A stretch of DNA of 64,000 bases. Source: Boletus sp. NGJ (taxonomy: Eukaryota; Basidiomycota; Agaricomycetes; Boletales; Boletaceae). A program made the position numbers and the translations under genes. The stretch's first letter is position 1. Each line of letters begins with the position of its first letter. Below are positions 38,859 through 60,498 of this stretch, piece after piece. The DNA lies in assembly GCA_019096195.1 (NCBI GenBank), contig JAGTXK010000095.1, positions 62,001 through 126,000 on the forward strand. The letters are read 5' to 3'. A model generated the notes under the pieces. It had not been told where the DNA came from. It did not search any database and was given only the letters and a program-made list of their open reading frames with translations.

Positions 38859-40914
38859 TCAACGCTTGGATGCATTCGCCCAGAGACTCTTCGGCTTCGC
38901 GGCGTCCGTCGCTTGCTTCTGCGCACGTAGTAACGCACTCTTGTTTGCCCGAGGCGCAATCGTGGGTGCTTGTAAACTGCTAGGACGACGTAATTTCCTT
39001 GTTGGGGATGTGACACCGTTCAGCGCCTCCTCGCTTTCATTGGATGTCGTGCTTGCCGTACTGAGTGGGCCGGTGCCAGTACCGCTGCTCGAAGTCTGGG
39101 ACGAGTAGCTGGTGGTCTTCTGAAGGATGCGAGCTCCGACATTGGAAGTACGGGAGGCCGAACGGGGAGGTACTGCAGACCTGGGACGCCACCACGACGA
39201 ATCGCCGTTGTCGCGATATCCACTCAGCGCAGAGGAACTACGAGAATTCACCCCCGAGCCAGGCGTCTTTGGTTCAGTAGGCAAACGGACTACCAAACAT
39301 CTCAGTAATATGAGCAAGACTTCAAGAAAGTCACCTACACATGAAACTACTCGGTGGAGGACCACCTTCCTTTCTCAGGGTGGCACTTTTGTTGAGGCGG
39401 GGAGTGATAGTCGGCGACTTCGTGCTCGCAACTGCAATGCTCTCACGACGTTTGTGACCAGGCACACCCTCAAAGGTATTCTTCTTCTTCGTGGCCTCCG
39501 TCTCTGTTTCTTCGCCATCGGCTTCGTTTGCACTCGTCGCTGAACACTTCTGGGGGGTGGCCGGACTGGCAGGCTTAACACCACAGTTCATGCTCCCTCC
39601 TTGTCCAACAACTTTGAGCAGCGGCCCAGATATAGACATGCGCTTCTTCCCCGGCGGGGTCGCAGGTTGCTCAAGCCCCAACCGTAACGCCGCTGCTTTT
39701 GTCAACCTCGGTGCGATCGCCGGCGGTGCCGTCGACGCCACACTGATTGTCTCTGCACGCTTATGGCCTGGAACGCCCGAAAACGTCTTCTTTGCTCGCT
39801 CCTTCTCCCTCTCCTTCTCCGCCGCCTCATTTCCATTGACCTTACGTGGCAGAGGAATACGCCCAGTGCTCGCCAACGACATGCGCGTCTTGACTTCAGT
39901 GCGGGGCTTGCCGTCCGCGGAGAGGCCCTGCCGGAGGAGCGCGGCTTTGGTGAGACGCGGCGCGATATCGGGGGCTATGTGTGTCTTGGGGAGCGGACGT
40001 GCGCGAAACTGACCTTTTCCAGACGAGGAATTGGACCCGGTGAGGCTACGTGGAGTACTGGAAAATCCAGGCCCACGTGCATCCGAGGAACCAGGTGAGG
40101 GAGAGAGCACATGCATGGACCCAATGGGTGTCTCAAGACCGAGCTGGAATGCCTCGAGCACCGCAGAATCGACAGAACGGATCGACCCACGATCGAATTC
40201 ACCGTCGCCTGCGACATGTGGGAGATCGGAGAGGGGAAATGGAGGACTGGAGACGAAGAGTGCTGAAATCAGCATCTCGGCTTGCGCCTCGCTTTTTGCT
40301 CCAATGACGGCGCCGTTGAGGGAGGGAAGGAGAGACAAGAGGACGGGGACGGCACGCCGACGCTCAAGGACGTATACCCAAACGGGACCGCTGATGAAAG
40401 CGTTCGAGTAATAGATGTCGTGAGTAAAGCCGGGAAGCGGGACACCAAGTGCGGAAACTCACTCGCCGAGAAATTGAGCATCGTCGCCGAACAACTCGTA
40501 GAACGTCTCCGGATCCGTTTCGGTGTCGAACTCCATCTGTCGTTCCTTGACAATCTGTGAATAGATTTAGTAAGTCCCCATGTCAGTCATTGATAGCGGA
40601 TCCGCCAGGGGGAGTACACGTTGCCGCACCATCAGCGGGCAACAAGTTTAGAAGTACATTGTCTTGACTGGAAACATCCGAAATTGGACACTTACTTCAA
40701 AGTTGGCCTCGAGAATACGGGGCTCGATTTCGAGGCGCTGTTCCAAAGCGTGTGTCTTGATGATTGCGACAGTGCGCGTCAAGGTCGACAGAGAGGGTGA
40801 CGGGTGAAGATGACCCAAATCTTGGGGCTGGAGAAGCGCATTCGGAGTATGTCCGTGGTCATCGTACAAGTCCGAATGATCTACAGGAGGCGGGGACTGC
40901 AGAGACGCAGACAT
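38859..40914 (-). CDS. nucleoside-diphosphate-kinase-like protein with repeated IxPRxxK motifs
   Basis: Four exons (40914-40696, 40554-40463, 40390-39351, 39289-38859) give 593 residues. Residues about 45-135 look like the first half of an NDP kinase fold: TRTVAIIKTHALEQR, ILEANFEIVKERQMEF and GPVWVYVLERRRAVPVLLSL. The active-site NxxH motif is not visible, so catalysis is doubtful. The remaining 450 residues are disordered and carry four copies of I(A/T)PRxxKxAxLR (IAPRLTKAALLR, IAPRLTKAAALR, ITPRLNKSATLR, IAPRANKSALLR, near residues 245, 328, 430 and 565) plus two copies of F(S/E)GVPGHKRxE(T/S)IxVAST. Repeats this regular suggest a multivalent binding site. The partner is unknown. Cytoskeletal or nucleolar roles would be guesses. 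Confidence 0.78.
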
Positions 40915-42468
40915 ATGGGTATAACCGGCCTGGCGCCAAATGGGGGCTTATTCACCAAGAGGGAAAGTAAAGCAGATTGGTGAAATATACACAGCAAAGG
41001 ATAGCTACTGGATAGAAGAAAAAAGAAACCAAAAAGAAAGAAAAGTAGCGATAGGCCTCGAGGACACTGGCGCGAGTCAGTTAAATCAACAGAGTTTGTG
41101 TGGTTTGACTCTGAATCTGCCCTGAGACAACATGGCAATTGCATCCGTTGATAACAGACCTCGGACACCCAGTGTCAGCGAAAGCTCATGATAAGCACTT
41201 GCTGGACCTCTCTTGCAAGTGTTGGAATGTCAAGCTGAGGCTTATAGCCTTGGAAGACTGCGTTCGGTCCCGCCATTACGCACGGTCGAACGGTCATGAA
41301 TGCGGTACCGCACTCTCGGTCTAGACTTATTAATTGTAGTTCGCTCAAAGTCAGCCGGTGAATGAAAAGTATGGGAACGCAGGACGTTCACGCACTGATT
41401 CCGACTCGGACAGACTCGCTGAGCGGTCATTGGTCTCGTGTGATTTCACCTCCTTCTGGAGCCTGAAGTTACACAAACCTTCCAAGACCCACTCCCGAGT
41501 TCTACGCTGTGTTACTTCCGCCTGAGCATCGTTGGCGAGCCATCGACATGTCATTGGGCATACTATCGACATGCATGTCTGCACCTTTCTTGACACGATC
41601 TCTGATCCATCCGTTCATTCCTCTTCGCTAAAATCACCTCAACTTCATTACGGCGACGGTCTTAGAGTCCCATACAGCAGTTGTAATTTGTTTGCGCCAT
41701 TACCACTTTTTGGCAGTCCAGCTCCTGCTCTTGGATACTAGGCGTCGTCGTTGACGATTAGGACCTTGCTTGCAAGTTGCAATGCCGACATGTGCTACTG
41801 GGAATCCGAGATGCCAAATACAGCGAAGGGCTCACGACCCATCAAAAGATTTACGAATCTGTTTCCAAATATATCATTATTTGTTCATGTAGCGAATCTT
41901 AGAAATCCAAGATGCTAAATACAGCGAAAGATTCGTGACCTGGCACAAGATTCACAAATCCTTTTTCAAATATATCAATGTTTGTTCTTGTAGCAAATCT
42001 GCAGAATAGGTGACCATGCATGGACCTTGCTTTGCAAGCAAGGTGATATACATCTTTGCGGAGTCACAGTCCCATCGTCCAATAGACTTTACGTGCCCCT
42101 CACATTGAACATTGAACAACAGTAGTAGCGCTCTGTCATGTGGAAACTTGAATGTTTAAACCAACCTCGCGGAGACAGTTGAGCTACAAGGCGAGCTCAA
42201 AGAGACGTGACTTCATAAAACGCGCCATTCAAACCGCTATCATGGCCACTTGCAGAAATACCATGTTCTTGATGTCCACATTAATGTCAACGTAACGTGG
42301 TCCCCACTGCTAGCTGGCGCGTAGTTCAAGCAGGCCAAATTGTAAATTAATAACGCAGGATGACAACCAAGAAGGTAGCTCCCAATATTTTAATCGATGA
42401 CAACTCTCGTTTTGGTAAGGGAATCGACATGTTGCGGTACTGTTATACAATGCTACGGATGCCAGTTG
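40915..42468. other. 1.55 kb without a supported gene
   Basis: Upstream of the NDK-like gene, downstream of the Derlin. Holds a 100-base tandem duplication (listed separately). A plus-strand frame at 42360-42569 overlaps the Derlin 3' end and is a shadow; the minus frame at 41351-41596 has no features. Confidence 0.45.
41802..42000. repeat. tandem direct repeat, two units of about 100 bases
   Basis: 41802-41899 (ggaatccgagatgccaaata, cagcgaagg, gatttacgaatc, caaatatatca, ttgttcatgtagcgaatct) is repeated at 41902-42000 (gaaatccaagatgctaaata, cagcgaaag, gattcacaaatc, caaatatatca, ttgttcttgtagcaaatct). Identity is about 80 percent. Several differences are C-to-T or G-to-A at former CpG sites (gcgaatct to gcaaatct). 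Confidence 0.8.
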
Positions 42469-43399
42469 TCAAACATCTCCGAACAGACGCTTGCTACATG
42501 TGCAGTCAGCACGCCAGCGTGACAAGGCAATCAGAAACACGACTCACAGAATTTCTGGAGCTTCGCTGAGGGGAGTATACCCCCCGATCATCTCCCTAGC
42601 CCACACATCCCTCAAGAACCAGCCGATATGGCCCACAGCACATCCGATCAAGTCACCTGCGGCAGCCTTCCATGTACCACTAATGATCCATGAAAGCCCA
42701 ACGAGTGCCAATGGCAGATAGGGTGCGGATATCGTGAAGATGCCAAAGAGTGCTATAGGCGTGGATGGGTGTCGTCTGGACCATATATAGATCGGAACAA
42801 AGGCCAGGGAAGACGAAAGAAACGGAAGGTTAACTAATGGCGACAGTGCCTGAAGAACTAGGTCAGCTGATGATGCTAGGACTTCATAGGTCCGGACGTA
42901 CGAGAAGCATCAGCGATGAAAGCAAAAGCAACCAGAGGTAATCTGCCCTTCTATTCGCAAACGATGATTCCTCCAACATACGACTGTATCGCATACTGGG
43001 TAGTCGAAGGTGAACACGTTAGTTGACCAACCCAATCTAAAGTATACAGAACACACTCACAAGAAGAAAAGATGGAATATAAAGTCTAGCGAGAGTGGGC
43101 CAAAATAAAAGAAGGTGGTAAGCATCCGCCACGGCTTCCCAACCCATCTACATGAGCTTGTTACCAGCACGAACAAGACATAAAAGGCTGACCTGTGCGT
43201 TTGTGAACGCAGACTTGAAAGAAAAGTACAGCTGCAGTGGAGTGACGACCTGACATTGCTGTATGACATCAAATACGTGATCAGTTCTTTATGCACGGTT
43301 GTGGAGTACCGCTGGACGTACGACCGCCAGGCTAGTTGCTACCGAGAGCGCTAACCACGCACGTGTGATGGGTGGAACCTGCATTACCCATGCCTCCAT
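42469..43399 (-). CDS. DER1: Derlin (Der1-like), ER-associated degradation channel component
   Basis: Six exons (43399-43322, 43258-43193, 43134-43061, 42995-42902, 42849-42548, 42493-42469) give 212 residues. The N-terminus MEAWVMQVPPITRAWLALSV is the Derlin start; then QCQVVTPLQLYFSFKSAFTN, PWRMLTTFFYFGPLSLDFIF, MRYSRMLEESSFANRRADYL, APYLPLALVGLSWI and VGHIGWFLRDVWAREMIGGY. These include the W-R motif and the GxxxG-like spacing of this rhomboid-pseudoprotease family; there is no Ser/His dyad, as expected. Derlins sit in the ER membrane and, with HRD1 and p97, move misfolded proteins out to the proteasome. The last exon is only 25 bases (KRLFGDV); if unspliced, the frame would stop at EIL. 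Divergent from the H3-mimic gene. Confidence 0.93.
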
Positions 43400-43664
43400 G
43401 TTTTGCCCGACGAGCCCAAGCCTCCTGTATGTCGGATTAGAAATGAAGAGGTGAAATGAATCAAGCAGCTGGCTTGGTGCGATGCTCTGAAGAGTAAATG
43501 GCCACGTCGGGCTGAGATATTGGAGGATGTTAGTGACATGGGAATTCCGGCGCTTTCCGGCAGAGCAGCGCATTCGGCTCAGCACACCCGGACCGTTTTC
43601 CGCGACGACCACTGGCAGGTTCTATCGCTCAAACCGTCCTCTGCCCTAATTGAATCCCTACACC
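43400..43664. promoter_or_regulatory. shared promoter between Derlin (-) and H3-mimic gene (+)
   Basis: 265 bases between divergent starts, CpG-rich compared with the block beyond 45191. No TATA box is obvious. Confidence 0.35.
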
Positions 43665-45154
43665 ATGGCCCGTATCAAACAAACCACAGGCTTGTCAACT
43701 GGTGGAGCAATTCGAGTTCGCCTAGGCTCGCTGAAACCCTCTGGACGGCGCGCTCAACGTTTGGTCAAACGAACAACTGGATCTACATCTGAGGAGCAGA
43801 CGACAATTTTGTCGGTGAGCACTACCCAACATCCAAACAGTTACTTTCTGACTAGGCTTAGTTTCGCTTTTTGTGCTAGGACGGTGGGGTGCTGTATGAA
43901 TGTAGCGACTGCCCGCGTTCGATGTGTGCCGAATGTCTACACGTACACGAAGACCACAGGAATGCCATCAGCGACGAGGCAGTGGCCTTCCAATGTGTCG
44001 CCTGTCACTGGCTCCTCCATCAGCGCAACGGAAGCTGCGCACCTTACCTGGGTGTTTCCTATCTCCTATCTTCTTTTCCTGCCCTTGTATTAAGAATCAA
44101 ATGCAGGGCTGTACAAGGGGAAGAATGCCGGTCCTCCAAACCATTTTGCAAGTCCTCGTGGTTTTGAAAATTTAACGCGCGGCATTATCCTGTCTCCTAG
44201 ACTCCTATTCCTTCATCTGAACCTCTACTCCATCTCATCCCACTTCCATGCCGATATTATCCATAGCGGCATCCGTGATTACTATCCCCACGGCGGATGT
44301 CCACCATGTTCCGTTTGACCTCGGCACCGACCGGGCCACCCAGAGCTACACCCAACGTGCTCACGAATTGGCCGCCATCTCGTCCAATTATGATCACGTC
44401 TTAATTGTACTGACCACGTAGATAAAGATTCCGGGGATCTCTTCCTCGGCCCTGATGAATCTGGGAAAACGATTACCGCACCGTCCACCAGGTAAACCTT
44501 TCTTTGCCCCTGCTTTGGAACGTCATATGTTTTGGTTCCGTAGGTTTTTAATATGCTGTTTGAGCCGTTGACGGAGCTCTTGAAGGGGAGATATGTATAT
44601 TGCGACATCCAGTGCTCTGGTCTGAAATGAAATGAGTTGCGACCTGCTGCGCAACAGCTATCGACAGTAAGTCCCTCAAAATTTAGTATTACCGAATTCA
44701 AGGTATTGAATGCAATTGCTTTCGATGCGCCACGCCTCCAAACTGTCAACATTGCCGACCTGTTGATGTGAATGTCGTTTGTCATCTTTGGGTTTGACTT
44801 TACCCAGGCTCTGGAAAGCATACTCAGAGAGTCCTCCATCCTTGGTCGCCGCACTGGAGTGTGGCACCTTGAATCTCACTGCGAGAGCATCCGTTTGACC
44901 AGGTACTTGTGGACTCACCGTGAGCACAAACCTTGGGCACCGGAGCTTGCGGAGAGCAGTACGCTGGCGAAGAATATGGAGCATTTACTTTGCTCCGAAT
45001 CATCACCGCTGCGGTGGAACTCTGGTATGATGCTGACCCTACGTCAACCATCACTAAGGAGGATTCGTTATTCGTGGAGTCATTCTGGATGAAGAAATCA
45101 GTCGCTCTGGTCCCCATGGCTTCTTTAGCTGGTGCTCGACCATGCACAGATGAT
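43665..45154 (+). pseudogene. histone H3-tail-mimic zinc-finger protein, 5' exons whole, 3' part damaged
   Basis: Exon 1 (43665-43814) starts MARIKQTTGLSTGG, aligning with histone H3 MARTKQTARKSTGG: R2, K4, Q5, T6, S10, T11, G12 and G13 are kept; T3, R8 and K9 are changed. It goes on basic (SLKPSGRRAQRLVKR). Exon 2 (43880-44051) encodes a PHD/ZZ-like zinc finger: DGGVLYECSDCPRSMCAEC, HVHEDH, FQCVACHWLL. Exon 3 begins at 44107 (LYKGRMPVLQTILQV in one frame). Downstream blocks RGFENLTRG, HVPFDLGTDRATQSY, DKDSGDLFLGPDESGK, MLFEPLTELLKGRYVYCDIQ, FVIFGFDFTQALES and YLWTHREHKPWAPEL line up with a recurrent Agaricomycete family, but frame changes are needed between several of them (about three or four), so the C-terminal part is probably dead or the product is the short N-terminal protein. 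No chromatin function is proven. Confidence 0.65.
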
Positions 45155-45190
45155 AGACAGAAAGTTAATGATGGGGTACATCGCTGGTCG

Positions 45191-46535
45191 GATTGTGGGG
45201 AGTTTCAAGACTGTCAGACCTGTTTGTCATCTGGAGCAAAGACAACTTGGAGAAGCTTGTCATCTAGTGTTGTGTTCTCAGCAGGGCAGACTAAGGATGG
45301 ACTCATTGGAATGGGGGCCATTGAAGATTTATTACTTATACACTAAATTGCTTATGAGAATGTTTGGCTGCCTGATGTGACTGACTAAGTAAAGTGAAGA
45401 TTTACTGATGTGGCCCCTGATTCAAACCAACATTTTGTGGTTGTCTGGAGTGTCCATGAGAGTTAATTGATGGAAGAAAAATTCAGGCTTAGTAGGGAGT
45501 ATCTAATATCCACTCTTAACATCAGTAAATTTACATGCATCTTAATCTGGCTTATTCTAGCTAATTCTGCTTGTCAAATTACAAAATATATTCGTTACCA
45601 TGATAATGCATTTCAGAACATTATAGAAACATCAACAACAACCAAGCTGATCTATTTTTCAACAAAATGAGGGTTAGAATTTATCTCTATGTCAGATTTG
45701 GAAATGTTGTGCAAGTCAATAAGCTGAATAAGACTGAATAAGATGCATGTAAATTTACTGATGAAGCTGACTTGTGGCATGATGCATTTTGTGGTGATAC
45801 TGGATGTAGTTGGAGATTGTTGCAATTAGATGGGACATTTGTAGCAATGTGGGTGCCTGTTTGAGGCTCCCACATAAAGTGATAGAGGCAGTTGTGCTTG
45901 ATTTGAGTGGTGCCAAGATCACCAAGGACAGTGATCATGCCATTAGCTACAGTATACCCCACAGGCCAAGTCTTGCAAGGAGTGTGTTGGTCCAGGAAAC
46001 CCTGATCACAACAGGGGCTTCACCTGTGGTCTGGCTTGGGTGGGGTTGAGTTACTGTACAAGCAGGACAAATTCATGGTGCAGTCCTGGGAACACAGACT
46101 GCTCCTTGTAAAGGGAGATTTCTGTGACAATATATTGTTCTTCAGGGTCCTGTTGTTGCAGGATGCAAAATCAGGCAAAAGATATCAGGGGTGTATGATT
46201 GCTGAGTAGTATCTGCATGTGGGACTTGGGTGGTTTTGTGGGCTTTTCAGACTCAGAGACAGAGGAAAGCAGGTAAGGATGTAAAGTAGCAAAGGAGTCC
46301 ATGTTCATCATATTGTGTTGGACTGGAATATATTGCAGGTGGTTTCAAAGACTGTGCCAGAAATCCCCTATCCCAAGGTTTTTGAGCTACCATGCAGTGC
46401 TGTTGAGTCAGTTACATCACCATTTTTAGTGGAAAGCCCCTATCCTACCAATGGCTAGAATATTGTACAAGTGCAATGCAGATCAATCACAACAACCCTT
46501 GTTCACTCAATAGACATCCCAAGACCTGAATCTCC
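45191..46535. other. CpG-free block, likely relic of methylated repeat DNA
   Basis: In about 1345 bases I find a single CG dinucleotide (near 45595), whereas flanking DNA has several per 60 bases. TG and CA are abundant, the pattern left by deamination of methylated cytosine in CpG. The block contains a 244-base inverted-repeat element and no credible gene; its right end reaches the last exon of the SET/MYND gene. Confidence 0.85.
45520..45763. mobile_element. MITE-like element with terminal inverted repeats, copy 1
   Basis: The left end CATCAGTAAATTTACATGCA followed by TCTTA matches, inverted, the right end (…TAAGATGCATGTAAATTTACTGATG) for over 20 bases. A second copy with the same interior (ctggcttatt, agctaattctgcttgtcaaatt, gtcagatttggaaatgttgtg, caagtcaataagctgaataag) lies at 59264-59493. 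At 244 bases it has no coding capacity. Target duplication is not clear. No CpG remains inside except one. Confidence 0.82.
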
Positions 46536-48035
46536 GCCAAAGGACCTCCATCAGAATCTCCCTCCGGCCCAATCACCGTCCAGACTTGGTTGCTCAGTCG
46601 AAGATACACTCGAACTTGTGCCAACAATTTTAATCCCACAGGCTGTGTCGAGGGATCTGTACCATCCATGGTAATGAAGGCATTCCATGCTGTCTTTGCC
46701 ATTTCCAGCAAGTGTGTCCCTGATTAATAAAGGAATTAATTCATCTTGAAGTGATCTGGACTCGAGGGAGAAAATCAGGACACATACCAATTTGAGGGTA
46801 ATTAGGTGGGTAGATGACGACGTAGAAAGCGAGGATGATCAGACCAGCTTCAAGGGCAGATTCAAATGGTCCATCGTGCGAAAAGGTGCTGAACGATTCG
46901 CATAAGCTTGCGAGGCAAGATTCGCGGAAGATGCGGAAGATCTCAAGAGGCATCGTCTCGAGGTTCACAGGCGAACTTGGGAGTTTGATCGCGTCAGGGC
47001 ATTGATCTGGAAACACGAATTTGCGAAGGGAAGTTCCGAGAGATCCAAGCTCTTCCTCATCCGGCACAGGCCAAGACGAATCCAATAGCTTGAAAGCTGT
47101 ACAAGATGGACACGTGCACGTGAAACCGTATGTGAACCGGAACATCTGCTGACGTGTCTCGACAAGGGCGGGGTCAACATAAGGGATGCATATCTAGTAG
47201 ACCTGTTTGAGTATACATGGCTTTTCATAAATAATACGCACCTCTTCGCCTGGGGCAACGTCTTGAATGGCGACAATGTCCATCACTACCTCCTTTGCTG
47301 GGGCAATCCTATACTTTGCAACAGCGTTCGGAACACAGGAATGATTGAACAACCGGCTTGCCAAAGGAAAGACGCCATGGGCAATGGTAGTCAGGTGACT
47401 GTGGATCGAAAAGTTGTTGTTCCCGCAACGCGAAAACAGCTCACTGGCCGTTTGCATAGGGCGCTGACGGGTCAGTAATGGACACGTAGGCGGCGCATCC
47501 TTCCCTTCGACCGGACCTGGCAGCAAGGTCATGAATATCGACAAACCCGGGTCGCCTCCTTCCTGTATCTCTGTGCCTTTGGTCGAGCACTCGGCGAGCA
47601 AGTGAGTGAGGAGAAGGGCATCTTCCCTTTCGTGAGATTCAAGTTGGTTGAATTGGTGCGACGCGCAGAACGTATTGATATTCTTGCAGTACTTCTTGTG
47701 GGTACGCCAATGCAATGTTTGACCTTGAGGATGAGATGGATCGGTCGTCGGGTAGTACTCAACGTCACGTTCGGATCGTGCGTACATTTGGAATCGCAAT
47801 ACCAGTACGAGGCGCATCCCGCGCACCTTTGGAGGCGACCTCGGTCTTGAGGAGGAAGAGAATAACAGAAGTCACATCTATGGCCCTTTTCTCTTGGGAG
47901 GAGCATGCCTGTGAGCGATCGAACCGAGAGGATGACCGTGCCCGCACGAAGCCAACATGTCGATACAGCCTTGTCGCGTGCCGTCTGGTGATGTTGCACA
48001 GATAGATTTTCGGGCGGGGCGCTTAGTGAAAACAT
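46487..48035 (-). CDS. SMYD-type SET/MYND protein lysine methyltransferase
   Basis: Exons 48035-47786, 47723-47242, 47193-46788 and a last exon ending at 46487. Residues ENLSVQHH and AGTVILSV open the SET domain; it is interrupted by a MYND zinc finger (CDFCYSLP, RCAGCASYWYCDSKCQ, HWRTHKKYC), the SMYD arrangement. The second SET half has ASRLFNHSCVPNAVAKY (NHSCxPN, cofactor and active-site loop), DIVAIQDVAPGEE and IPYVDPALVETRQQ, then the post-SET cysteines in YGFTCTCPSC. The C-terminal helices include HLLEMAKTAWNAFI and VYLRLSNQVWTVIGPEGD. It should transfer methyl groups from S-adenosylmethionine to protein lysine; the substrate is unknown. The junction between the third exon (ending PNYPQIG) and the last exon does not fit in phase with a canonical site, so a small error or lesion may be there. 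Confidence 0.85.
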
Positions 48036-48198
48036 CGAAACCTGAACGCGGAGAATCATGCATTGCTTGTTTCCCAACAGTTCGACAGCGGCCCGGGACT
48101 CCGAACTCTGGTATTAGATTACACCGACCTCGTGAACTCTCTCAGACTCGACCATCGACTGGTTTGAGCTCCCGTTCAAGTGTCTGGAACAAGAAAAT
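48036..48198. promoter_or_regulatory. 163-base bidirectional promoter, SET/MYND (-) and ECHS1 (+)
   Basis: The shortest intergenic gap between two divergent genes in the window. CpG-rich, in contrast to the depleted block at the other end of the methyltransferase gene. Confidence 0.45.
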
Positions 48199-49212
<1,014 letters not shown>

Positions 49213-49357
49213 AGTGCGTGTAAGTATATTACAATAAAATATCCAATTGGTGTCTGTCTTGAGGTGGTCGATCGAGCGAATTCCAAGTGGACGTTCACTT
49301 TTCTGAGTAAACCATGAACATGTGAACGTATGCCCTTAGGTCCTAGGAAAACGCACA

Positions 49358-51103
49358 CTAATCCATATCCGACCACTCATCAACTTCCTCGTCCAAATCC
49401 TCGAAATCTATATCATCCTCGTCGTCACTTCCCTCGAAAAAATCAAACGTCTTCACATTCTCCTTCAACCACTCCGTATCGTCGTCATCCAAGTCACACG
49501 ATGCCTCCACGTACAGCGAATCGAGAGGTGCTCCCATGTCCCTTCTTTTTTGAACTAGCTCACGAAGAACATCCCCGGATGTCCCAGAGACGTACAGTGT
49601 CGCAAGTCGAGGCAACCAGGTGTCACCACGCCCGACCGACATGCAGGGTGTGGCAAGAATGTCCAGGAACAGTGGAGGAAGGTACGTCAACGAAATGTTG
49701 AGCGACGTAAGGTTCTGGAGCTCGCCATAGAGCGTCTCGACGCATCCTGAGTAGCAAGGAAGTCCAGCTATTTTGAGACTTACAAGGCTCTTCAGCAAGC
49801 TGCGCGGCTGTTCTAGGGCAGAAGGCAGAGATGAGGACGTAGCTGGTCCGACGAGTTCATGGACGAGTTCGGTATATTCGCCATTGTCGAAGTCTAGAAC
49901 CAGATTTTTGAGTGCGGGGAGATAGAATTTGCGGAGTAGCCCGATGGAACGTATAGGCGAATGGAATGCGAAGATGAAATCTGTCACCTTGGGGAGTTGG
50001 ATAGGAGCATTGAGATCTATGGGACTTCCAGGGGTCGGCTCGATAAACCACGCTGGGGGATCTCCAGAGGGTCCTGACAGACGTATACCGAGTTTCTCGA
50101 GGGCTGGAGCACCACGCAAGATGGTGGCAAATTGAGCCCAAGAGGGACGAACGTCTTCTGGATGAAATGCGAGTTCGAGATATGTAAGTTTGGACGCGGA
50201 AGTGATCCATGGCTGATTCCAATCAACATGCACTCCCCAAAGGACGACGCTGGTAAGGCAAGGCGCCGAACCACCAAAAAGGATGAAATGCTTTGACATG
50301 CTGGGATACCCGAAGTTGTCGAATTCTTCCATCTCTTCGCGGTGATATAATTCAAGCGTCGTGAGCTGAGGAGCGGCGGAAATGGAGGGATCAGAGACCG
50401 CGCTGAGAAATGCATGCATGTGGCGGTACTCCGAGACCGAGACTTCGATGGTGCGCCAGCGATGGATGTGGGGAATGAGCAGAGAATATAAGAATTTGCG
50501 ATCGACGTCGAAAGGGATGCCGCCATCTGTTGCGTCAGGTTTAGTGGGTTCCTGACGTTCACACTCGATGTAGATATCTATGGGCAGGTCTTTACTCCGC
50601 TCCAACCGCATCGATACGTAGTGGTACGGTGGACGGGCCTCTGGACTGACTACAATAGTCGTCCAGAGAGATGGGGTCGAGAATGCTATAATGCGCCAGT
50701 GGTGGCAGACATGGGAAACGACGACCTGGAACGGAGGCCATGAGGCAGGCATATCAGAGGATCCGGTGGCATCCGAAGAATCTTCCTCGTCATCAGCCTC
50801 TTCCTCATCTCCTTCTCTATCGTCATCTGCAAGCTCTTCGGTCATTTTGACATCATGAGGGATATCGCTATCATCGGCGTCCTTTGCGTCGAGACGGTAG
50901 TAGTGGACGTAATCCAAGTAAGCTGCCATGTCGCCTTCGTCCTTAATATCATTATCCGCGGTACCGACCTCGAATATGCGTGAAAGGAGCTCGGGAGGAA
51001 GGTTGTTGATGAAGCAGACGTTACCGCTCGGAGGAACGAAAGGGTTGTTTGGGAGGAGTACGCGGTGGTCTTCCCTAGTTTGCTGGGCCTGCGTGATTCC
51101 CAT
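49358..51103 (-). CDS. F-box protein with acidic insert and acidic tail
   Basis: One exon of 581 residues. The F-box starts at CFINNLPPELLSRIFEVGTA (about residue 30) but its second half, VVVSHVCHHWRIIAFSTPSLW (about residue 125), is separated by a highly acidic insert rich in Asp and Glu (EELADDDREGDEEEADDEED). The rest has weak LRR-like segments (LTTLELYH, LTSVVLWGVHVDW, LTYLELAFH, LKNLVLDF, LTSLNISLTYLPP). The tail (EGSDDEDDIDFEDLDEEVDE) is again acidic. An SCF substrate-receptor role is family inference. The lack of introns contrasts with its neighbours. Confidence 0.85.
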   Translation of the reverse strand: MGITQAQQTREDHRVLLPNNPFVPPSGNVCFINNLPPELLSRIFEVGTADNDIKDEGDMAAYLDYVHYYRLDAKDADDSDIPHDVKMTEELADDDREGDEEEADDEEDSSDATGSSDMPASWPPFQVVVSHVCHHWRIIAFSTPSLWTTIVVSPEARPPYHYVSMRLERSKDLPIDIYIECERQEPTKPDATDGGIPFDVDRKFLYSLLIPHIHRWRTIEVSVSEYRHMHAFLSAVSDPSISAAPQLTTLELYHREEMEEFDNFGYPSMSKHFILFGGSAPCLTSVVLWGVHVDWNQPWITSASKLTYLELAFHPEDVRPSWAQFATILRGAPALEKLGIRLSGPSGDPPAWFIEPTPGSPIDLNAPIQLPKVTDFIFAFHSPIRSIGLLRKFYLPALKNLVLDFDNGEYTELVHELVGPATSSSLPSALEQPRSLLKSLVSLKIAGLPCYSGCVETLYGELQNLTSLNISLTYLPPLFLDILATPCMSVGRGDTWLPRLATLYVSGTSGDVLRELVQKRRDMGAPLDSLYVEASCDLDDDDTEWLKENVKTFDFFEGSDDEDDIDFEDLDEEVDEWSDMD

Positions 51104-51848
51104 TCTTCAAGGACTACTGGTTCATGCGGCGTGAGTGCAGAGTCGGGGAGAGAAGCTAACGGAGTGGGTACTGACGAGCTTCAGAAAACGGGGATTTATT
51201 TGCTACCGAAGTATGGTATAACACGCGTGCTGGGGCAATTGTGCAAGATGCGGGCCAAATTGATCAAGAAAGGTCGCGATGGTTTGATCTTTCAACGCGT
51301 CCCCAGGTATATCTCGGTTTTGGCAGGCTAGAATGATTATGATGCATCTCTGCTTGACCGAGAAACAACAGCATCATGGCGCAGAGGAAGCGCGCAGGGC
51401 TCATAACCCTGAGGTCACTTGATCGAAACAAGTTGATGCTAATTTTTTTTTCGATTGTTTTTGACTCCAATCATTATTGTTATCCACATGTATCTTGCAG
51501 AGTTTGTAGGAAAGGCTGAAAGCTAGGCTGCAACTCTATACATAGCAAAGATACATGAATGAACTTATGAGATCTCGACATTCCCATCCCGTCAGTCGCC
51601 ACAGGAGGTGCACCAAATGGCGTTACTAACGGGATGACACGTACAACTTCATGTCACGCGTTCCATTCCATCTAGCGCTCTCTGTCGTTTCCACCACGCC
51701 GCTCTGAAAATGCTTCATATTTTTCAGACCAAGCCAATTTTTGTTTGGGTGAGTGGAGTCCTGATGTCGTTTACTAAAAGAAGTATTAAGTAATACCCCT
51801 GCACGTTCTCATGCGCATCGTAGGAGCGTGGTTGTCCTCCTGACGACC
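51104..51848. other. divergent spacer between two F-box-like genes
   Basis: 745 bases with no supported gene. A poly-T run lies at 51441-51452. A GTG-initiated extension into 51828 was rejected in favour of the ATG at 51849. Confidence 0.4.
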
Positions 51849-53401
51849 ATGCACCACTGTCTATACATCTCTGAAGTTCTGGGCCTCATCTTCGAGTCCG
51901 TTAGATACTGGGATGACCAGTGTCAGCGAGAACCTCAAGTGGGCAAGAAGACGCTCGCTTCTTTGGCCAGAACATGTCATTTGTTCAGTCCACCTGCATT
52001 AGATATCCTATGGCACGATCTATACAGCTTTGATCCTCTGCTCAAAATTTTACCGGTTGTTCGTCCTCGTCATTCGCTGTGTCCGGTCGAATTGCGCTGA
52101 TCTACTAAATGTAGGCCACATACTGTGTGGATGACACGCAGTGGTTGACTTTTCGCAAGTACGCGAAACGTATCAAGACTCTCCATGGACGTGAGGCGCG
52201 AGTTCCTGTGCGGTTCAAACAAGAAATTGTCTCCTCCCTTCAACACTGCCCGAAAACCTATCTGCCTCTCCTTCCCAATGTCACCGAGCTGGAGTGGAGC
52301 GAGCACTCATTGTCGGCCATCGAGGATTCCGGTATCTCATTATTGAGATATTTTGCAGGTCCCGCAGTGACCACAGTCACTATCTCCCTCGTGCGCTGGC
52401 TAGCTCATTCTTCCGCTGAACTAGCCGTATTCGCGGATCTACCCAGACTCTGTCCCAATGTCACTTCTTTCACCGTCATCCTCAGCTTTTCGTGGGACTA
52501 CGAACCTTCTCGAGAAGTAGGTAGGATGGTGACTCAGTGGCCAAAACTGCGAAAACTGCAGACATGCGCCATTACACAACCCGTGATGGACCAGTTGTTC
52601 ACCCGACGAGCACTTGACACCCTCAGTATCGATTACCACAGGTCCTCACCTATCTACAACGGTAGGATCCCAGATACGGTCCGCAAGCTCTCGCTTGGTG
52701 CAGACAGTCCCTCGTTGTGTACTCGTTTTCTCGAGACCGTATACGCGAGCCCTACCAGATTTCGCCTGCTGATCGGTATGAATGAAGGACAAGAGGAGCC
52801 AGACACAGAGGAAATGTTCCACCTTCTGCCCCGCCGCCTCGACACATCCCGTTTACTATCGCTCACGATCCGACCACGATCAAGCATCATAGGCATACCC
52901 TTGTGGCATACCCTGAGGCTCCGAGAGCCGCTCATCTCCGCGCTGGTCGAGTTTACAGCATTGCGCGAGCTGGACCTGGATCTCCTTTGTACAGCGCAGA
53001 TGTCCGATGCGGACTATGCGCGCATGGCAGGGTCGTTGATACACCTCCGGAGTCTAAAGCTCGGTACTGCGAACCCATCCATCATGCGGCCATGGCCAGC
53101 GGCAAGCATTGGGGCGGTAATCTCGGTGTTGACATATTGTAAACACCTTGAGACATTCCACATCGTGTTTGATGGGTCGATTCCACCCCCGGCACCCCTG
53201 GGAGAGCCGGGGTGTCAGGGATGGGGTGCATCCAATAGATGTCTTACCAAGCTCCGCGTTGGCTATTCGCCGATCGGGGATGCGACTATAAACGTCATAG
53301 CCTCCTGCTTTAAATCGGTCATGCCTTGCCTGGTGGAAATCGAACGTAGAGACCGGGAACAGGAGTGGAGAGCGGTCCAGAACATCTTGGGATCGTACTA
53401 A
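51849..53401 (+). CDS. F-box/LRR-like protein, family copy 2
   Basis: Two exons (51849-52055, 52115-53401) give 497 residues. It is a paralog of the gene at 28803-30589 with the intron at the same place before (V/T)xDDTQWL. Shared blocks: LGLIFESVRYWDD, KKTLASLARTCHLFS, ALDILWHDLYSFDPLL, RKYAKRIKTL, RYFAGPAVTTVTI, LCPNVTSFTVILSF, GRIPDTVRKLSL, ADYARMAGSLIHLRSLKLGT, YCKHLETFHIVFDG and KSVMPCLVEIERRD. Compared with copy 1 it lacks the N-terminal 40 residues and the acidic insert in the F-box and has a shorter C-terminal linker. Estimated identity is near 50 percent, so the duplication is old. The ATG starts MHHCLYISE, close to the F-box. Confidence 0.85.
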
Positions 53402-54235
53402 AATGCGGAGAATAGGCGCTGTTCTGTCCATCGCTGCGTGCTGAGTGCACGAATTAACAGCGATAGAGAACGTTTAGAAAGCCTAGATCTAATACCTTTC
53501 CCTTCTTAGATTGAACCTACCTTCTAGAGACTTACGATACTCGGTGTTGTCGCAGGACGTCGACTCTACTCACTTACAATTGCCTTGATAGACCTAGAAC
53601 CAAGTGCTCTTTCATTTCCATCAAACTTTGCTACCAGTCTCTTGTAACTGAGGTTCCTCGACAAGGTTTGAAACAATCGTCAGCAACATGGTTAAAGGCT
53701 TGCCACCTCCGGAGCACGGTTGGAACGCACTCTCTGGTTGACCTGTCCGTGAGTTTGAGCGAGTTGATGAGTACATCGTCGAGTGAATATGCGCATCCCG
53801 AGGTTCTCGAATTGCTGCATAGATTCGTTGTTTATGAAACCAGGCCTTTCTGAGCGACAAGAACATCCCAAGCCGCTGCGGCTCAACATTGGCTTGTACA
53901 ACCACCATGTACAGATGATCGAATAGGAGGAACCAATACATACCTATATCAATTCCGTATAGTCGGGACTTTGTAACCATGGAAGGTTTAGCATTTCCGA
54001 TGGAAGACATGGAGAGAATGCAGACTAGTTCAGCTAGCGAACAGGGCGCTTACCTTGTGGGGCGACGAAGGAGTTGTTTTGGTGAAGAACGACACAGGAT
54101 GCTCTCCATTGACCTCTGCACGCACCGTGATGACATTGAGCAAAGCTTTGCAAACTGCAAATGGCTAGAGCGAAGTTGGAGTGCCAGTGGCTCGGTGAGT
54201 TACGTGACACATGCTTAAAGGCACTGCCCACCGAG
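53402..54235. other. no supported gene; possible F-box gene remnant
   Basis: Minus-strand frames at 54034-54231 (with QNNSFVAPQ next to a GTAAGC donor) and 53621-54010 recall the start of the F-box gene at 51103 (PNNPFVPPSG), but no F-box follows. I read this as a remnant or chance likeness. Confidence 0.3.
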
Positions 54236-57200
54236 CGAGGGAGAGCTGCATACTACATACCTGGACCGACGAAGCGGGGAGTCGACTGCAGATTCGGACG
54301 CACGACTTGTTATTGCTAGTTTGAAGGGCGCCCCGGGCGGGCCTCAGGGTTCAAAGCTTCAAGGCCCGATGGCAAAATCTTTTTTCGCGGCGGCCACATA
54401 TTGAAACATAGACACAGCGTTCAAGAATCGTCTCACGCGGAAAGTTCAAATCCGTGGGGTCGCGCAATATCCGTGCCGTTGATCGATCAACGATCTAATT
54501 AGGAGCGACTTTCGCACCTCTCCCTCTGTTATTCCGTCTGGACTCGCAGAGGGTAAATGTATATAAATGTATTCCCATCATCATTTCGACGCTATGAGAG
54601 ACAGAACAGATTCTTCCACGATACATATAATCTCCCATCGATAACGTACATTCATAAAGACAGACACAACTAGCCACTATAATATCAAAGAACGCGAATC
54701 TCATACCAAGTAATCGTACACCAGCACTCATCATCTTGAACTCATCCGTATACCCAGCAGGGAGACGGCCATAGACGAGATCTTCTAACCTGTACCGTCC
54801 AAGGTCCAGGTACCAGAGGATCCTTGAGTGTCACAGCACGTGAGGATCATCACAGCTCAGCGAGACTGAAATCAAACGCGGCTTACCTCGGTGTTTCAGC
54901 CTCGTTCCACTGGCTCGCAATCCGTTTCGCCACTGGAAGAAAAAGGTTGTATCAACATCCGATCCAATCCATCCTACCTGTTGCCGAGATAGGGGCATGG
55001 GGTATGTTGACTCACTTGTAGGTGACATCTTCCCCGCTGACGTGCTATATAGGATGGAGTACATGACGAGCCTGGTATGCAAATAGGTCGAATAGAGCGA
55101 CTTACAACAATGCTGTCCCATGCAGAGACGCCAGCACAGCTCCCCGACGACGAAGTGGTCCTCTTCCTCGAGACGGGCCACTTGGTCCCTCGGACGGTCT
55201 CAATCCATGACGATGTTGCATGAGGATACTACGCACACGCATCCAAAAGCTCATCTCCAGAACATCTCGAAGGGACACATCACACAAGACGCACCTGCCA
55301 CACCATCACACCGGCATCTAACACATCCCTACCTGTGAGTTTGCGGCTCATTTTGGATGAGAATGAGAGGGACTTACCCCATCCCTTGCCAGCAGCCTCG
55401 GAGACACACGTTGCAAGCGTCGAGGGGTCTATGTATCCGTTGCTTGCGTCCGAACTCGTGGCTGGTTTTCCGATCACGAGTTTATCGAGAGTGACACCGT
55501 TGGCGGAGATCTGGAACAGGGCAGTTTCCGGCCAGGTAGACGAAGAGGCCGTCAACAAGCCAGCGCATGTAGAGTACTCCGTGGATCCCTCTGTCGATCG
55601 AGTATAAGTGGCTTTCAGCATGTCGAGTTCAAGATTATTTAGCTCGATCGCTTACGATTGTAGAACTGGATGATTTGATTGATCAGTCAATGATCGTCCA
55701 TGAAGTGAATGATTGAACTTACTTGGACATTGTACTGAACAACTGATCAATCGATACCCACAGGATATCAAATTACGTTTACTCACCCAGTCTATCATAG
55801 ATCCCACGCTTTTGTGGACCGCCAGGTATCCTCCTCCGCTCCACATATTGGGCGAGAACCTGGTTTCAATTCAAGTTATTATTTAAATCGTTGAGATTAC
55901 ACTCACCATGGTGCGACGGCTACAAGGTACACGTCAGACAATTGGCGCACGAGATTTTTTTTTACACGACTCACGGGCATGAGTCAGAATATAATTTCCC
56001 TGGGCAAGTTTCGTGCGAAGTTGTTTGGTGAAATTAATGAGCCATGTCTCCGCAGAGCCGTTTCCAATGTCAAACGCAGTAAAGTCCTAATTCCCGGCGT
56101 CCTCGTAAATTACCGTCACATCGCCAAAAAAAAAGTACACAGGCAGCACCTCATAGTCGACGTCAATACCCTGAAATCCGTATTCAATCACCCAGGAAGC
56201 CATGGTGTTCGCTGTCGTCACAGGATCGTACCCAGACGAGGTCGGCGTCTCGGTGGACCCAAATGCAGAAACGATCAGCGATATTCCAGCGGCTTTATAC
56301 TCTGACAGGTAAGTGGAACGCTGGCTGGACGTCAGCCCCTCCCAATTCTGAGCCTGGTCAACTGCACCAGAGGCCATCAAAAAGGTGACGGCACTGCAAA
56401 TACGTTAGTCGTGCTACAAAACGTTACCCGATAGATACTTGCAAAACATTGAATCCCTTGAGTGAGTGACCATCAGCGATCACGAAAGTCGACGGGGAAA
56501 CGGACGGTTCTCGCTTACACTGAGCTCTGATGAGCTGGGAAACGGGCTGAGCCACTGGTCATTGTAGGCCAAAAAGTGAGGTGCGGCTGGTGTAGACCTC
56601 TTTAAGAGATCACGAGCAGAGGGACTGAGACGGTCGAGTTTTTCCGCCAACGGAACAGCATAGAGCGATCCAAACAAGGAAAAGAAAGCCACAAATGTGG
56701 TCACCCCAGAGCGAATGGAGACCATGGCACCGAAAGAAGAGAAAGGTAAATGCGCAAATGAGCTGCAAGGATAGTTGCTCCTCGCGGGGCGTTAAATATC
56801 ACACCCCGAGCCGATATCGGTCCGTCCACCTCATAGAGACCGAGGACGGTGTGAAGATGAGGTATGGAGACCATCCCACAAGACCCCTTCTGGAACTAGG
56901 TGCGATCGCCTCGGGACGATGCTGGCAAAGTGAATACATCAAGAGAATACGGTCACAGAAGCAGGCCACTGTATAGCTGGACATACCGATTAGTCGACAA
57001 CAATGCAATGATACCTCACAGCAATGAGTCAGAAGACACTGATGCCATATGGTAGGAAGGGGTGTGACGATGGAGTGCAGAATGTTCCTTCATCAGGATG
57101 ATTCGGTGAGGCAGCTTGGAGGGGGGTCCACACGAACATCCATGCGCTCGACTGCTGCAAAATCAGGTGAGGAAGAAATGGGTAGACTCAAAAGATGGGC

Positions 57201-57462
57201 CACATTAGGACTGATGCCAGCCTGGAGACACGGGCAGCTCGGCGAGCTAATGGAAAACGGGAATCCTATCCTGACAACATGTCACGGGTGTGTGCGACGC
57301 TAAACCGCGATATGTGAGCAACACCAAAGAGTGAGAGCGATTTGGATGGTTGCTTACGAACCATAAAGTTACTGCTACATTCCAATCATCCGTTTACATA
57401 ATTCGCGGTCCATAAACGGCATACCTAGGTGGCAATCAATAAAACCCATGCGGTAGCACGAT
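54236..57462. repeat. segmental duplication, left unit
   Basis: Aligns with 60499-63351. The left edge shares gagctgcat..acatacctgga ccgacgaagcggggagtcga and the right edge shares aataaaacccatgcggtagc acgatga. The unit contains a whole GH18 gene. The left unit is about 370 bases longer, through small insertions near both ends. Confidence 0.9.
54785..56725 (-). CDS. GH18 chitinase-like protein with C-terminal chitin-binding segment, left copy
   Basis: Starts at 56725 with a signal peptide (TTFVAFFSLFGSLYA, cleavage likely after it). The first exon ends SSELS; a 29-base exon (GFNVLQVSIG) and then AVTFLMASGAVDQAQNWEGL follow. The active-site strand is YGFQGIDVDYE (DxDxE kept; the first Asp of DxxDxDxE is Gln). 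Later exons give DFTAFDIGNGSAETWLINF, WFSPNMWSGGGYLAVHKSVG, a 12-base and a 10-base exon (YNVQ, FYN), ETALFQISANGVTLDKLVIG, DAGVMVWQ, SSWIETVRGTKWPVS and SCAGVSAWDSIV. The C-terminal Trp-rich segment (QWNEAE ... SSGTWTLDG) resembles CBM5/12. Next to that segment this copy lacks two bases present in the right copy, which breaks the frame near the end. Secreted chitin hydrolysis is the family role. Confidence 0.78.
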
Positions 57463-58313
57463 GAGTATAGATAGAGTCGGAAAATTGTGATTCACCGATA
57501 CGATATGTGCGCATGGCACTCAATTCATTCGATAACGTGAAGTCCTCCACAGATACTTGCCAGGCTCTCGCCCGAGAAGTGCGCATACGTTGGCGAACCA
57601 GCGTTAAAACCCGCTTGCAGGAATTCTTTGTTGCCCTCTCGGTATCAATACTATGATAAGAAATGAACACGTGTACAGCGTAATGAACTGCTGCCTACGA
57701 TAGTGACTTCAGAGGGAACCTTGGTCCATTCAGTCACTGGGACATGATCACTTTTGAGGGTCTTCTTTCCATGGCGAATCGAGATCCATCTGTTGATGTC
57801 CTTTATGTGGTCGATGAGAACTCAACTTGCGGACCCTGTACAAGCGTTCCGTCTCGATCCAGCTCCTCAAATGGACCTCTTAAGCTGGTAAGCTTGATTG
57901 TCATAATTGAAGCCGGACCTTGTGGGCTCGTATTGTCTTGTGGGGTGTTGGTAGTGGTCAGATCCCGAGCGTGCATCTAATATCCATACGCACAGGCAGC
58001 GACACTTTGGTCAACCGAAGCATGACTGTGAACGGGTCAAATACATCGTACTTATCTGGAAGGGTAATCCACGGTCGTCATGATCCATGATGAACTAGTA
58101 CTTTGGTTTGGAGTATTGATGTAAAGGGCTGTATTCTGGATGCGCACAAAAAGTGCGCGTATTGCAGCGTTTTCATCAAAGAACTGATCATAGTGGGACG
58201 GAGCCGAAGTGCTTCCGAGAGATCGGTAATGATCCGCGTTATCGAGGAAGCAGGTCAACCGCATCATGCGAGTCGACATTTAGAACCGCTCTGCTCCCCA
58301 TACCTCATGGTTA
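56726..58313. other. duplicated 5' flank of the GH18 gene, then unique DNA
   Basis: 56726-57462 is the promoter side of the GH18 gene and is shared with the right unit. From 57463 on the sequence is unique. Minus-strand frames at 57425-57670 and 58052-58279 and a plus frame at 57744-57980 have no domain support, though they may be exons or debris of the HET-type gene. Confidence 0.4.
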
Positions 58314-59015
58314 TCAAAGAACCTGTGACTGGAGGCTACTTAGAGGGGCCGCGCATCCGGGGGGACACAAAAGTGACGACGTCACCGTGCTATCACAAAG
58401 GCGGTCAACAAAGTTTACTGGACCTCCCAGCCGCATCAAAGCACAGTGGTGACCAGTACTACGCCAGTCACGTCGAGGGACCGACCACATGGCACAAGTG
58501 CGAGAGCGAACGCCACGGAGGAACACGATCGTCACGGCAGAACCCTGATACCACTTGAACATGGCGACCAGGGCTTCTTGAAGCACGACATGATCTGCTT
58601 TATTGATGCAGCACGTATCACTCCATGCCAAGGGCAACCCAGCGTTCCGCACAATCCTGCAAAACAACATTTGCATTTTGTCATGGGGAGATTCACCGAG
58701 ATCATATACACCAATACGAACGACATTTTCAAAGAGGGGTTCGTCGTCTTCCCATTTGTGGGAAAACATCGCATAACGATAGTGTTGGGTAACGTCATGC
58801 GCGATGCGGGCATGGCCGATTCGAGTCGTCATGGAGGACACCAACTGTTTGAAGACTGTGAGCAAATCGAATACGGCAGCTTGTTGTGATTCACGGATGG
58901 TATCCTGAACCGCGCTGCGCGTCTTGCTGTGCAAGTCACCGGCAATTCCATGCTCGAATGGACACAAGCGGCCGGCGAAGAACTTGCTCGAGACACGTGC
59001 TTGTCTCTGTTCCAC
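58314..59015 (-). pseudogene. HET-type (heterokaryon-incompatibility-like) domain fragment
   Basis: One 233-residue frame. The core YRYAMFSHKWEDDEPLFENV, VYDLGESPHDKMQMLFCRIV, AWSDTCCINKADHVVLQEAL and MFKWYQGSAVTIVFLRGVRS is the HET pattern (A-x-L/F-S-H-x-W, then D-T-C-C-I-N/D-K, then S-x-x-x-M-F-x-W-Y). The usual continuation (R-x-W-T-x-Q-E) is absent after LRGVRS and the tail is unrelated, so it looks truncated. HET proteins trigger cell death on non-self recognition. It sits between the two units of the chitinase duplication. Confidence 0.65.
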
Positions 59016-59263
59016 AATACGTTTAGTAAAGTTACCGTTTAGAGGGACTCAAAATATTCATTCATTCGGACTGTTAGCAACCATCGAATGTAAGCATACA
59101 CGTACAAAACAACGGACCCATTCTAAATAGTACGCGACTCAGACTTAACGGGATATGAATTTACATCGCTTGAGCAAGAATTTCTATCGGAAAACGCACA
59201 GTTTACACACCAAACTAACAATTAATTAATCAATTTTCTATTTGTACATGTAGACGTTTTGCA

Positions 59264-59493
59264 CATCAGTAAAATTACACATGTCTTAATCTGGCTTATT
59301 TTAGCTAATTCTGCTTGTCAAATTGCAAAATATATTCAATACCATGATCATGTGTTCCAGAACATCAGAAACATCAACTAGGGCTATATCAACAAAATGA
59401 AGCTTAGAATTTGCTTCTGTGTCAGATTTGGAAATGTTGTGCAAGTCAATAAGCTGAATAAGACAGATTAAGATGCATGTAATTTTACTGATG
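59264..59493. mobile_element. MITE-like element with terminal inverted repeats, copy 2
   Basis: Ends CATCAGTAAAATTACAYATG and, inverted, CATCAGTAAAATTACATGCA. The interior matches copy 1 (45520-45763): ctggcttatt, agctaattctgcttgtcaaatt, tcagatttggaaatgttgtg. 230 bases, no CpG inside, no coding capacity. Its own two ends match each other better than they match copy 1, so the copies moved separately. Confidence 0.82.
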
Positions 59494-60498
59494 CATGAAG
59501 CCAATGTTGGGAGACCTTGGCAAGCAAAGTGATGAAACGAGTTCGACGGTGAATAAGGCACACTAGAATTCCCATTGGAGAAATGTAATGAATTCGAGCA
59601 AGGTCAGGACACCGCGCACTCCGGGCGCGTCTGTGCAATAAGGTCTCAGTCGTTGTGCTTCGGGCAGACGGACTATGTATTTACCTGTGCAATAAGGTCT
59701 ATGTACATAGTGATTAGATATGGTTTATGTAGGTATCAAATGGTAACTGCTCACCTCAGTCATTGCGCTTCAGGCAGACAGACTGAGGTGTAGTTCTGGA
59801 TACATCGAGTTTATATACGAAGGGTAAGAACAATAAAAGAGAAGTATCATATGGCATCGAGTCGGCAAATGGACGCGACGGAGCATAGGGAATGAAGAAT
59901 TATGTAGCAGAAATGTATATCGCGCGGTCGCGCAGTGCCTCAGACACTTTCCGTGCTCCCGGTTGACGTGCAGGTGACATGGTGACGTTCCACCGCGCGG
60001 CTGCGCGCGTGCTTGCCTGATTTCAACAAAATGATCCATTCATTGAAGGGGCTTTCATTTCCGAAGGTCCCGCGGCATCTGTAGGGTGGGCCATGCTTTT
60101 TAGGTGTTAATGTGGTGTGAGTGGCATGCAAAGCAAGGGAGAGCTGCATACATTAAAATAAAATAAAAAAATCCTTGTTTATTGTCCAATGAGGCGGCAG
60201 CCTCTTGTTGGACAGTACGTGCGGGGAGCAGTGGGGTAGTGTCTACGCAGGGGGTTCTGTAATTATCTATGGGAGTGTGGGGATTTCATTGCTGGTACAG
60301 TAAGAGTGATAGACAGTTAGGTTGCAGCTGGGCATGTGGAGTAAGGACAAGACGTGAGTGGGTGTAAAGTAGCCTCGAGAGGTCGGAGAGGTCGGTGTGA
60401 GACTGCGCTTAGGCGGTGTGCCTTTTAGCGGTCGTCCTTGTCCTTTGGGGGGGTGAGGTTGCCGAAGGTGTCTTTTAGTCTGGTCAGACTTCAAATCT
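59494..60498. other. unique spacer without supported gene
   Basis: Holds the hairpin and direct repeat at 59645-59790. An A-rich run (cattaaaataaaataaaaaa, 60151-60170) next to a block shared in part with 54236 (gagagctgcata) could be the tail of a retroposed segment, but no reverse-transcriptase-like frame was seen. A hydrophilic minus frame at 59770-60039 is unassigned. Confidence 0.35.
59645..59790. repeat. 30-base direct repeat, second copy inside a hairpin
   Basis: ctcagtcgttgtgcttcggg at 59645 recurs as ctcagtcattgcgcttcagg at 59755, each followed by cagac(g/a)gact. The second copy is bounded by perfect 10-base arms cacctcagtc (59752-59761) and gactgaggtg (59781-59790). Confidence 0.75.

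Follow-up and report, generated by a model that had tools for sequence, protein, structure and literature searches.

An H3-like N-terminal tail joined to a PHD/ADD-like finger in a small fungal gene family

Described H3 mimics and their readers

N-terminal histone mimicry has been described for viruses and for a few animal proteins, and PAF15 (PCLAF), which begins with MVRTK, is one of the closest systems to the genes reported here. UHRF1 recognises the H3-like start of PAF15 through its PHD finger, in much the same way as it does H3 (PMC7060239). The N-terminus of Sgo1, Ala1-Lys2-Glu3-Arg4, is bound like an H3 tail by the BIR domain of Survivin (PMC9253516). In BAZ2B, a histone-mimicking linker reduces the H3 affinity of the protein's own PHD finger (PMC5663869), and DNMT3A has an ADD domain that contacts H3K4me0 and ordinarily keeps the enzyme domain of the same protein blocked (PMC10393158). 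In the fungus Podospora, a TPR-bearing CHAT protease activates a gasdermin (PMC12881547).

We describe a fungal gene family whose best preserved member, named C9 after its contig, encodes 477 amino acids. C9 and PAF15 have the same first five residues, MVRTK, and the C9 mimic runs longer like H3 (KQTAKKSTGG). The reader of PAF15 is on another protein, whereas the C9 family carries a reader-class finger in the same chain. Likewise, Shugoshin Sgo1 is read by a BIR domain on a separate protein, and its H3 likeness is far shorter than that in the C9 family. BAZ2B is like the C9 family in that a single protein combines a finger reading the unmodified N-terminus of H3 with an internal mimic that lowers H3 binding; however, its mimic is a lysine-rich interdomain linker, whereas that of C9 is an N-terminal copy of H3 sequence. 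With regard to the ADD domains of ATRX and DNMT3, which read H3K4me0, similarity to the family profile lies in the PHD part of ATRX ADD, but the C9 family is without the GATA-like part, has other partner domains and carries the H3 mimic in addition. A His/Cys-containing domain of the C9 family is possibly related to the fungal CHAT proteases, with weak profile similarity, and the 477 residues of C9 contain no TPR or NLR parts by Pfam. The tails resemble H3 (ARTK...) from the first residue, which is what defines N-terminal H3-tail mimics of the PAF15 and Sgo1 kind. Among the open-licence papers listed, titles and abstract starts did not describe such fungal proteins, also when the string ARTKQTARKSTGG was included, although such absence is weak evidence.

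The decayed copy in the window

The window, i.e., the whole stretch of 64,000 nucleotides that was analysed, comes from a eukaryotic assembly (32.8 Mb), in which it spans G000:C35:62001-126000. It holds an H3-tail-like N-terminus, MARIKQTTGLSTGG, at 43665..43706 on the forward strand, the counterpart of MVRTKQTAKKSTGG in C9. The open reading frame from the ATG at 43665 reads MARIKQTTGLSTGGAIRVRLG..., and this is the first ATG because an in-frame stop lies only five codons upstream. The first-pass annotation of this DNA had pointed out a mimic of the H3 tail, and the likeness was borne out: MARIKQTTGLSTGG is identical to canonical H3 at 10 of 14 positions (9 of 14 against the H3 of the same genome, which has T10), with R2, K4, Q5, T6, S10 and T11 retained, as had been stated, and Leu at position 9. 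Among the 2382 ATGs of the window (both strands), that at 43665 is the only one with at least 8 of 14 H3 matches, the runner-up having 7. The chance expectation of such a tail is approximately 3e-4 (binomial, assuming p=0.07 at each site and a total of 15,000 genes). Judged by these counts, the H3 likeness of the window tail is beyond chance.

Exon 1 (43665..43814, forward strand) encodes 50 amino acids, namely the tail and a basic linker whose sequence differs between paralogs and is not conserved, and is followed by a GT donor at 43815. By homology to C9, the probable ancestral intron 1 is 43815..43861 on the same strand (47 nt, GT..AG), and the tblastn match to C9 exon 2 starts at 43862, immediately past an AG. 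An intron at 43815-43879 had been proposed, but the homology sets the start of exon 2 at 43862 and not at 43880. The proposed acceptor at 43879 is the last base of an in-frame TAG; therefore, exon 2 as first annotated is without the first Cys pair. The finger-like stretch that had been noted after the tail is present, as a decayed PHD/ADD-type finger at 43862..44053 on the forward strand (41% identical to the C9 finger; family alignment A2). It reads FRFLC*DGG, versus FCHMCGDGG in C9, i.e., Arg replaces the first zinc-binding Cys and an in-frame TAG is the sixth codon; the eight-ligand set is incomplete, the first Cys being Arg. Consequently, of a start codon and exon 2 that were both called clean, the former stands as the first ATG after an in-frame stop and the latter does not, and the damage is not confined to the later part, since the stop and the lost zinc Cys are already at the start of exon 2.

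The feature also extends beyond 44160, which had been given as its end, because pieces of the C-terminal domains run on at 44308-44948 in other frames with four stops. A remnant of an alpha/beta domain (VPFDLG...) is found in another frame at 44308..44373 (forward strand; match to the paralog on contig C6, E 5e-4). A second remnant, from a His-containing segment (H-x5-GDLF) to a C-terminal W-x-H block, is at 44400..44948 (forward strand; E 5.5e-12), with the four stops and gaps inside it, some of which perhaps represents intron sequence. With this damage the copy in the window is a pseudogene, one member of a small family of fungal genes, and the earlier observation of a tail followed by a finger was partly confirmed. 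An exact inverted copy of the surroundings, 100% identical over at least 20 kb (window 39702-59701 versus G000:C50:150000-169999), is on contig C50; it is either a haplotig or a recent duplication.

Paralogs, tail conservation and the finger

A genome search with the window finger remnant alone returned five diverged paralogs, on contigs C9, C10, C11, C40 and C6, and also the remnant itself, its C50 copy and a stretch on C38 (E 0.019). C38 was rejected as a family member, with this E-value and no ATG of the fetched region exceeding six H3 matches. The C-terminal domains were also matched in all five finger-found paralogs. The C9 gene (G000 C9:3123-1531, minus strand) consists of four exons at 3123-2902, 2850-2662, 2606-2074 and 2020-1531, which form an uninterrupted frame of 477 amino acids, and three introns of 51, 55 and 53 nt, all GT..AG. 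Among the seven copies, it reads as the one intact member found. Pfam (E up to 10) gave no histone fold after the tail in the 477 residues. Some 370 bp upstream of the gene there is a tandem repeat (G000:C9:3493-4086) whose unit measures about 50 bp.

The C6 copy is interrupted by two or more in-frame stops. C10, C11 and C40 have one common in-frame stop past the finger and further damage, and are dispersed repeats about 90% identical to each other. Their last exon (429 nt) showed 114 transitions and 6 transversions, summed over three comparisons, and dN/dS values of 0.51, 0.67 and 0.42, within a neutral 5-95% range of 0.27-0.95 that was computed from the C10 sequence only. We therefore rejected a selected mobile gene; the three copies look like decaying repeats, judging from these substitutions. 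Because only C9 of the seven copies reads intact, the family may be disappearing from the genome. Gypsy-like elements were seen near C40, C6 and C11 and Tc1-like elements near C10 (judged from open reading frames only), and a KDZ transposon CxC2 cluster near the C11 copy (G000:C11:29205-29672, E 5e-25).

The paralogs start with MVRTKQTAKKSTGG (C9), MVHTKQTAKKTIGG (C6), MTCTKQMAKKTTGG (C11) and MTHTKQIAKKTTGG (C40); C10 starts with MTCTKQMA followed by a deletion, keeping the first half of the tail. C9 matches canonical H3 at 12 of 14 positions, and C6, C11, C40, the window copy and a further gene on contig C134 show 10 of 14 against the better of canonical H3 and the genome's own H3. The latter is MARTKQTARKTTGGK; C6, C11 and C40 have the same T at position 10, and their tails match it at 10 of 14 positions, compared with 9 of 14 for canonical H3. 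T at position 10 (ARKTTGG) occurs in the H3 genes on C19, C22 and C137. Looking in this genome for homologs with unrelated N-termini, which had been named as the observation that would speak against a mimic, we found 10-12 of 14 matches in four of the five paralogs and MTCTKQMA in C10, an outcome that favours the mimic. The tails of the five paralogs are independent evidence because the paralogs were found via the finger. The C11 and C40 tails are near copies of each other.

Between C9 and C6, identity was 79% in residues 1-14, 8% in residues 15-39 (ungapped), 43% in the finger and 33% in the C-terminal part. Thus the tail is the best kept of the segments compared, followed by the finger and the C-terminal part, with the linker lowest. 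The mean identity of five lineages was 56% in residues 1-14 versus 13% in residues 15-39 (the latter ungapped); the lineages are the window copy, C9, C6, C11 and C134, whereas C40, which nearly duplicates C11, and C10, on account of its deletion, were not included. Numbered as in H3, all five lineages retain the initiator Met, K4, S/T10, G12 and G13, four retain T3, Q5 and T6, three retain R2, A7, K9 and T11, two retain A1 and one retains R8. The R2 equivalent is His or Cys in C6, C10, C11 and C40, and T3 is Ile in the window copy. A tail that is K4-like but not K9-like had been pointed out; the paralogs do not bear this out as a design feature, with Lys at position 9 in C9, C6, C11 and C40, whereas the decayed window copy has Leu there and C134 has Arg. 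Each of the seven copies has A, V or T as its second residue. Since a small second residue allows removal of the initiator Met, this removal would be permitted in the family.

Querying the genome with H3 residues 1-29 returned six matches, i.e., four histone places, C9 and the C134 gene. The query missed C6, C11, C40 and the window copy, implying that further tails may exist. We rejected a recent copy of an H3 exon as the origin of the tail, as the H3 genes on C19 and C137 have introns within the tail or immediately behind it, the match of the C22 H3 gene to the H3 query starts only at residue 5, and no intron interrupts the mimics at this place.

The C9 finger has eight putative zinc ligands with PHD-like spacing (C-x2-C-x8-C-x2-C-x4-C-x2-C-x19-C-x2-C-H); classical PHD fingers have His where C9 has a Cys. 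In a phmmer comparison with solved structures (E up to 10; 44 chains matched), it found CHD4 (5e-6), AIRE (5e-5) and ATRX ADD (3e-3), and also NSD3, SP140, Sp100 and TRIM66. With a five-row family profile, CHD4 ranked top (1.5e-7), aligned to the first part of the finger, and ATRX ADD was matched with an E-value of 8e-7 over profile positions 2-49 of 63. The Pfam PHD model did not match C9 (E up to 10) or the whole and partial proteins (E up to 1), in searches where HMMER filters remove most weak matches; Pfam gave sub-threshold matches only, to DUF7836 (0.034), B-box (0.086) and MarC (0.025). The ADD fold includes a GATA-like finger besides the PHD part, and this finger is absent from C9 because exon 1 holds one Cys. 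The fingers of AIRE and CHD4 bind the H3 N-terminus unmethylated at K4, and most H3K4me0-type readers require R2. By its matches, the family finger resembles the PHD/ADD type, the class of readers of K4-unmethylated H3. The suggestion of a histone-reader finger next to the tail is in keeping with this resemblance to CHD4, AIRE and ATRX, and the earlier interpretation is partly supported.

Proposed working of the tail and competing explanations

The best explanation in our judgement, with a probability of roughly 0.45, is that the tail docks in the finger of its own or a partner protein, competes with H3 and gates the C-terminal domain. The tail, its conservation and the class of the finger are demonstrated by sequence comparison, whereas the removal of Met, the binding of tail to finger, the gating and any caspase-like activity are inferred. 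Removal of the initiator Met would expose a free A/V/T-x-T-K-like N-terminus, which would dock in the finger of the same protein or of a partner and compete with real H3 for it. Nucleosomal H3 that displaces the tail, or modification of the K4-equivalent lysine, would then switch the C-terminal domain. Candidate ligands of the C9 finger under such self-gating would be H3(1-15) and the peptide VRTKQTAKKSTGG. By analogy with PAF15-UHRF1 and BAZ2B, both halves of a competition between tail and finger are possible. Against this explanation speak the replacement of R2 in C6, C10, C11 and C40 and of T3 in the window copy, the missing GATA-like finger, the lack of Pfam PHD, CHAT and caspase matches, the poor model of the alpha/beta domain and the single intact copy.

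The tail could instead act in trans as bait, i.e., as an integrated decoy that H3 enzymes of the fungus or of an invader write, erase or bind, with the finger targeting the protein to chromatin. Both lysines, K4 and K9, occur in C9, C6, C11 and C40, which is beyond what docking of ARTK only would need, and the C134 gene (G000:C134:10193-11500) carries a related tail, MARTKTTVRRSLGGTAPRVSLTKPDSG, ahead of an unrelated DUF6532 domain and contains at least two in-frame stops. The DUF6532 match (Pfam PF20149; 25.4 bits, cut-off 24, E 1.5e-5) was obtained with exon pieces joined by X at two stops, and it was the only one above cut-off over the whole and partial proteins. The likeness of the C134 start to that of C6 continues past the H3-like residues (46% across query residues 1-35; E 6.6e-4). 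This gene was found by the tail query, so we excluded it as support for the co-occurrence of finger and tail; it is absent from the genome matches to the window finger, so that a tail may also work in a chain that has no finger. Three DUF6532 loci (of more than 20) had no H3-like start within 0.8-0.9 kb upstream (best 5, 4 and 3 of 14 matches); thus, as far as sampled, DUF6532 loci do not generally carry the tail. The second fusion, as read from the C134 sequence, may indicate that the tail can be reused as a module. However, bait acting in trans leaves unexplained why a reader-class finger lies in the same chain in all five finger-found paralogs, and we consider it rather unlikely. The DUF6532 passage of PMC8955403 does not mention histone. 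DUF6532 is widely dispersed in this genome, where 61 pieces matched (E up to 1) and many of them have internal stops, and it matched in none of 14 control genomes.

It is also possible, though unlikely, that the tail is the pseudosubstrate or propeptide of an H3-tail-clipping protease of caspase/CHAT-like type in the C-terminal domain. Residues 138-315 of C9 (exon 3) contain His247 and Cys296, 49 residues apart and invariant in the three rows of alignment A1. The structure model of exon 3 alone (pLDDT 54 with the first alignment and 59 with the second; pTM 0.51, low confidence) predicts the order strand-helix-strand-helix-strand(His)-helix-strand(Cys)-helix, and strands and helices with His then Cys in this order are typical of caspase-like domains. 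In addition, hhalign, run with seven CHAT domains from this genome, placed the Cys of the C9 family on the CHAT Cys over 24 columns, and its score of 20.1 lay above those of all 150 column-shuffled profiles and of the reversed one. The probability given by hhalign was, however, 1% (P 0.046; 0.062 for a longer alignment). Foldseek with the low-confidence model returned unspecific alpha/beta folds, none with E<0.001, with caspase-11 at ranks 13 and 32 and other folds higher. Pfam CHAT and caspase models did not match the C9-family proteins (E up to 10 for C9 and up to 1 for partial ones), nor did a PDB profile search with the C-terminal domains return caspase or separase. A relationship of the alpha/beta domain to caspase/CHAT is suggestive only, on the strength of these profiles and the model.

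The sole PDB profile match of the C-terminal domains, succinylglutamate desuccinylase (E 0.92), was taken as chance. An invariant W-x-H-x-D...W-G-x2-L-P-x-Q-C-x2-C-G occurs together with two more Cys in the Cys-rich C-terminus, which is perhaps a zinc ribbon. Scanning viral and prokaryote contigs with A1 (viral, bacterial and archaeal records, by description without fungi) gave 27 and 84 pattern matches, respectively, and no confirmed one. CHAT itself matched 44 pieces genome-wide, 42 of them above cut-off, and 11 are on contig C73, six in open frames of more than 1000 amino acids.

We regard as doubtful the bolder proposal of an autoinhibited sensor, in which the tail would fill the protein's own H3K4me0-type finger and silence a caspase-like domain, free or foreign H3 or tail-modifying enzymes would trip it, and the tail would have been shuffled to DUF6532. 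A still less probable explanation is that the tail, copied from H3, serves as a nuclear-import signal only. H3(1-28) is a recognised import signal, which Kap123 reads through K14 and K23 (PMC5677370); however, all six tails readable there (window copy, C9, C6, C11, C40 and C134) carry A, E or T at position 14, and the absence of K14, a Kap123 contact, weakens this explanation. Chance resemblance in a pseudogene, for which the broken state of the window copy could speak, is refuted by four more tails with 10-12 of 14 matches on finger-defined paralogs and by the best other of the 2382 ATGs having 7, and we give it almost no credence.

If the sensor with a silenced caspase-like domain were true, it would link chromatin state to proteolysis. 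As for docking of the tail in its own or a partner's finger, our preferred reading, a mimic and a matching reader-type finger in one fungal chain, beside a domain that may be proteolytic, would constitute a natural self-gated histone reader, and intramolecular H3 mimicry would become testable with one protein of 477 residues.
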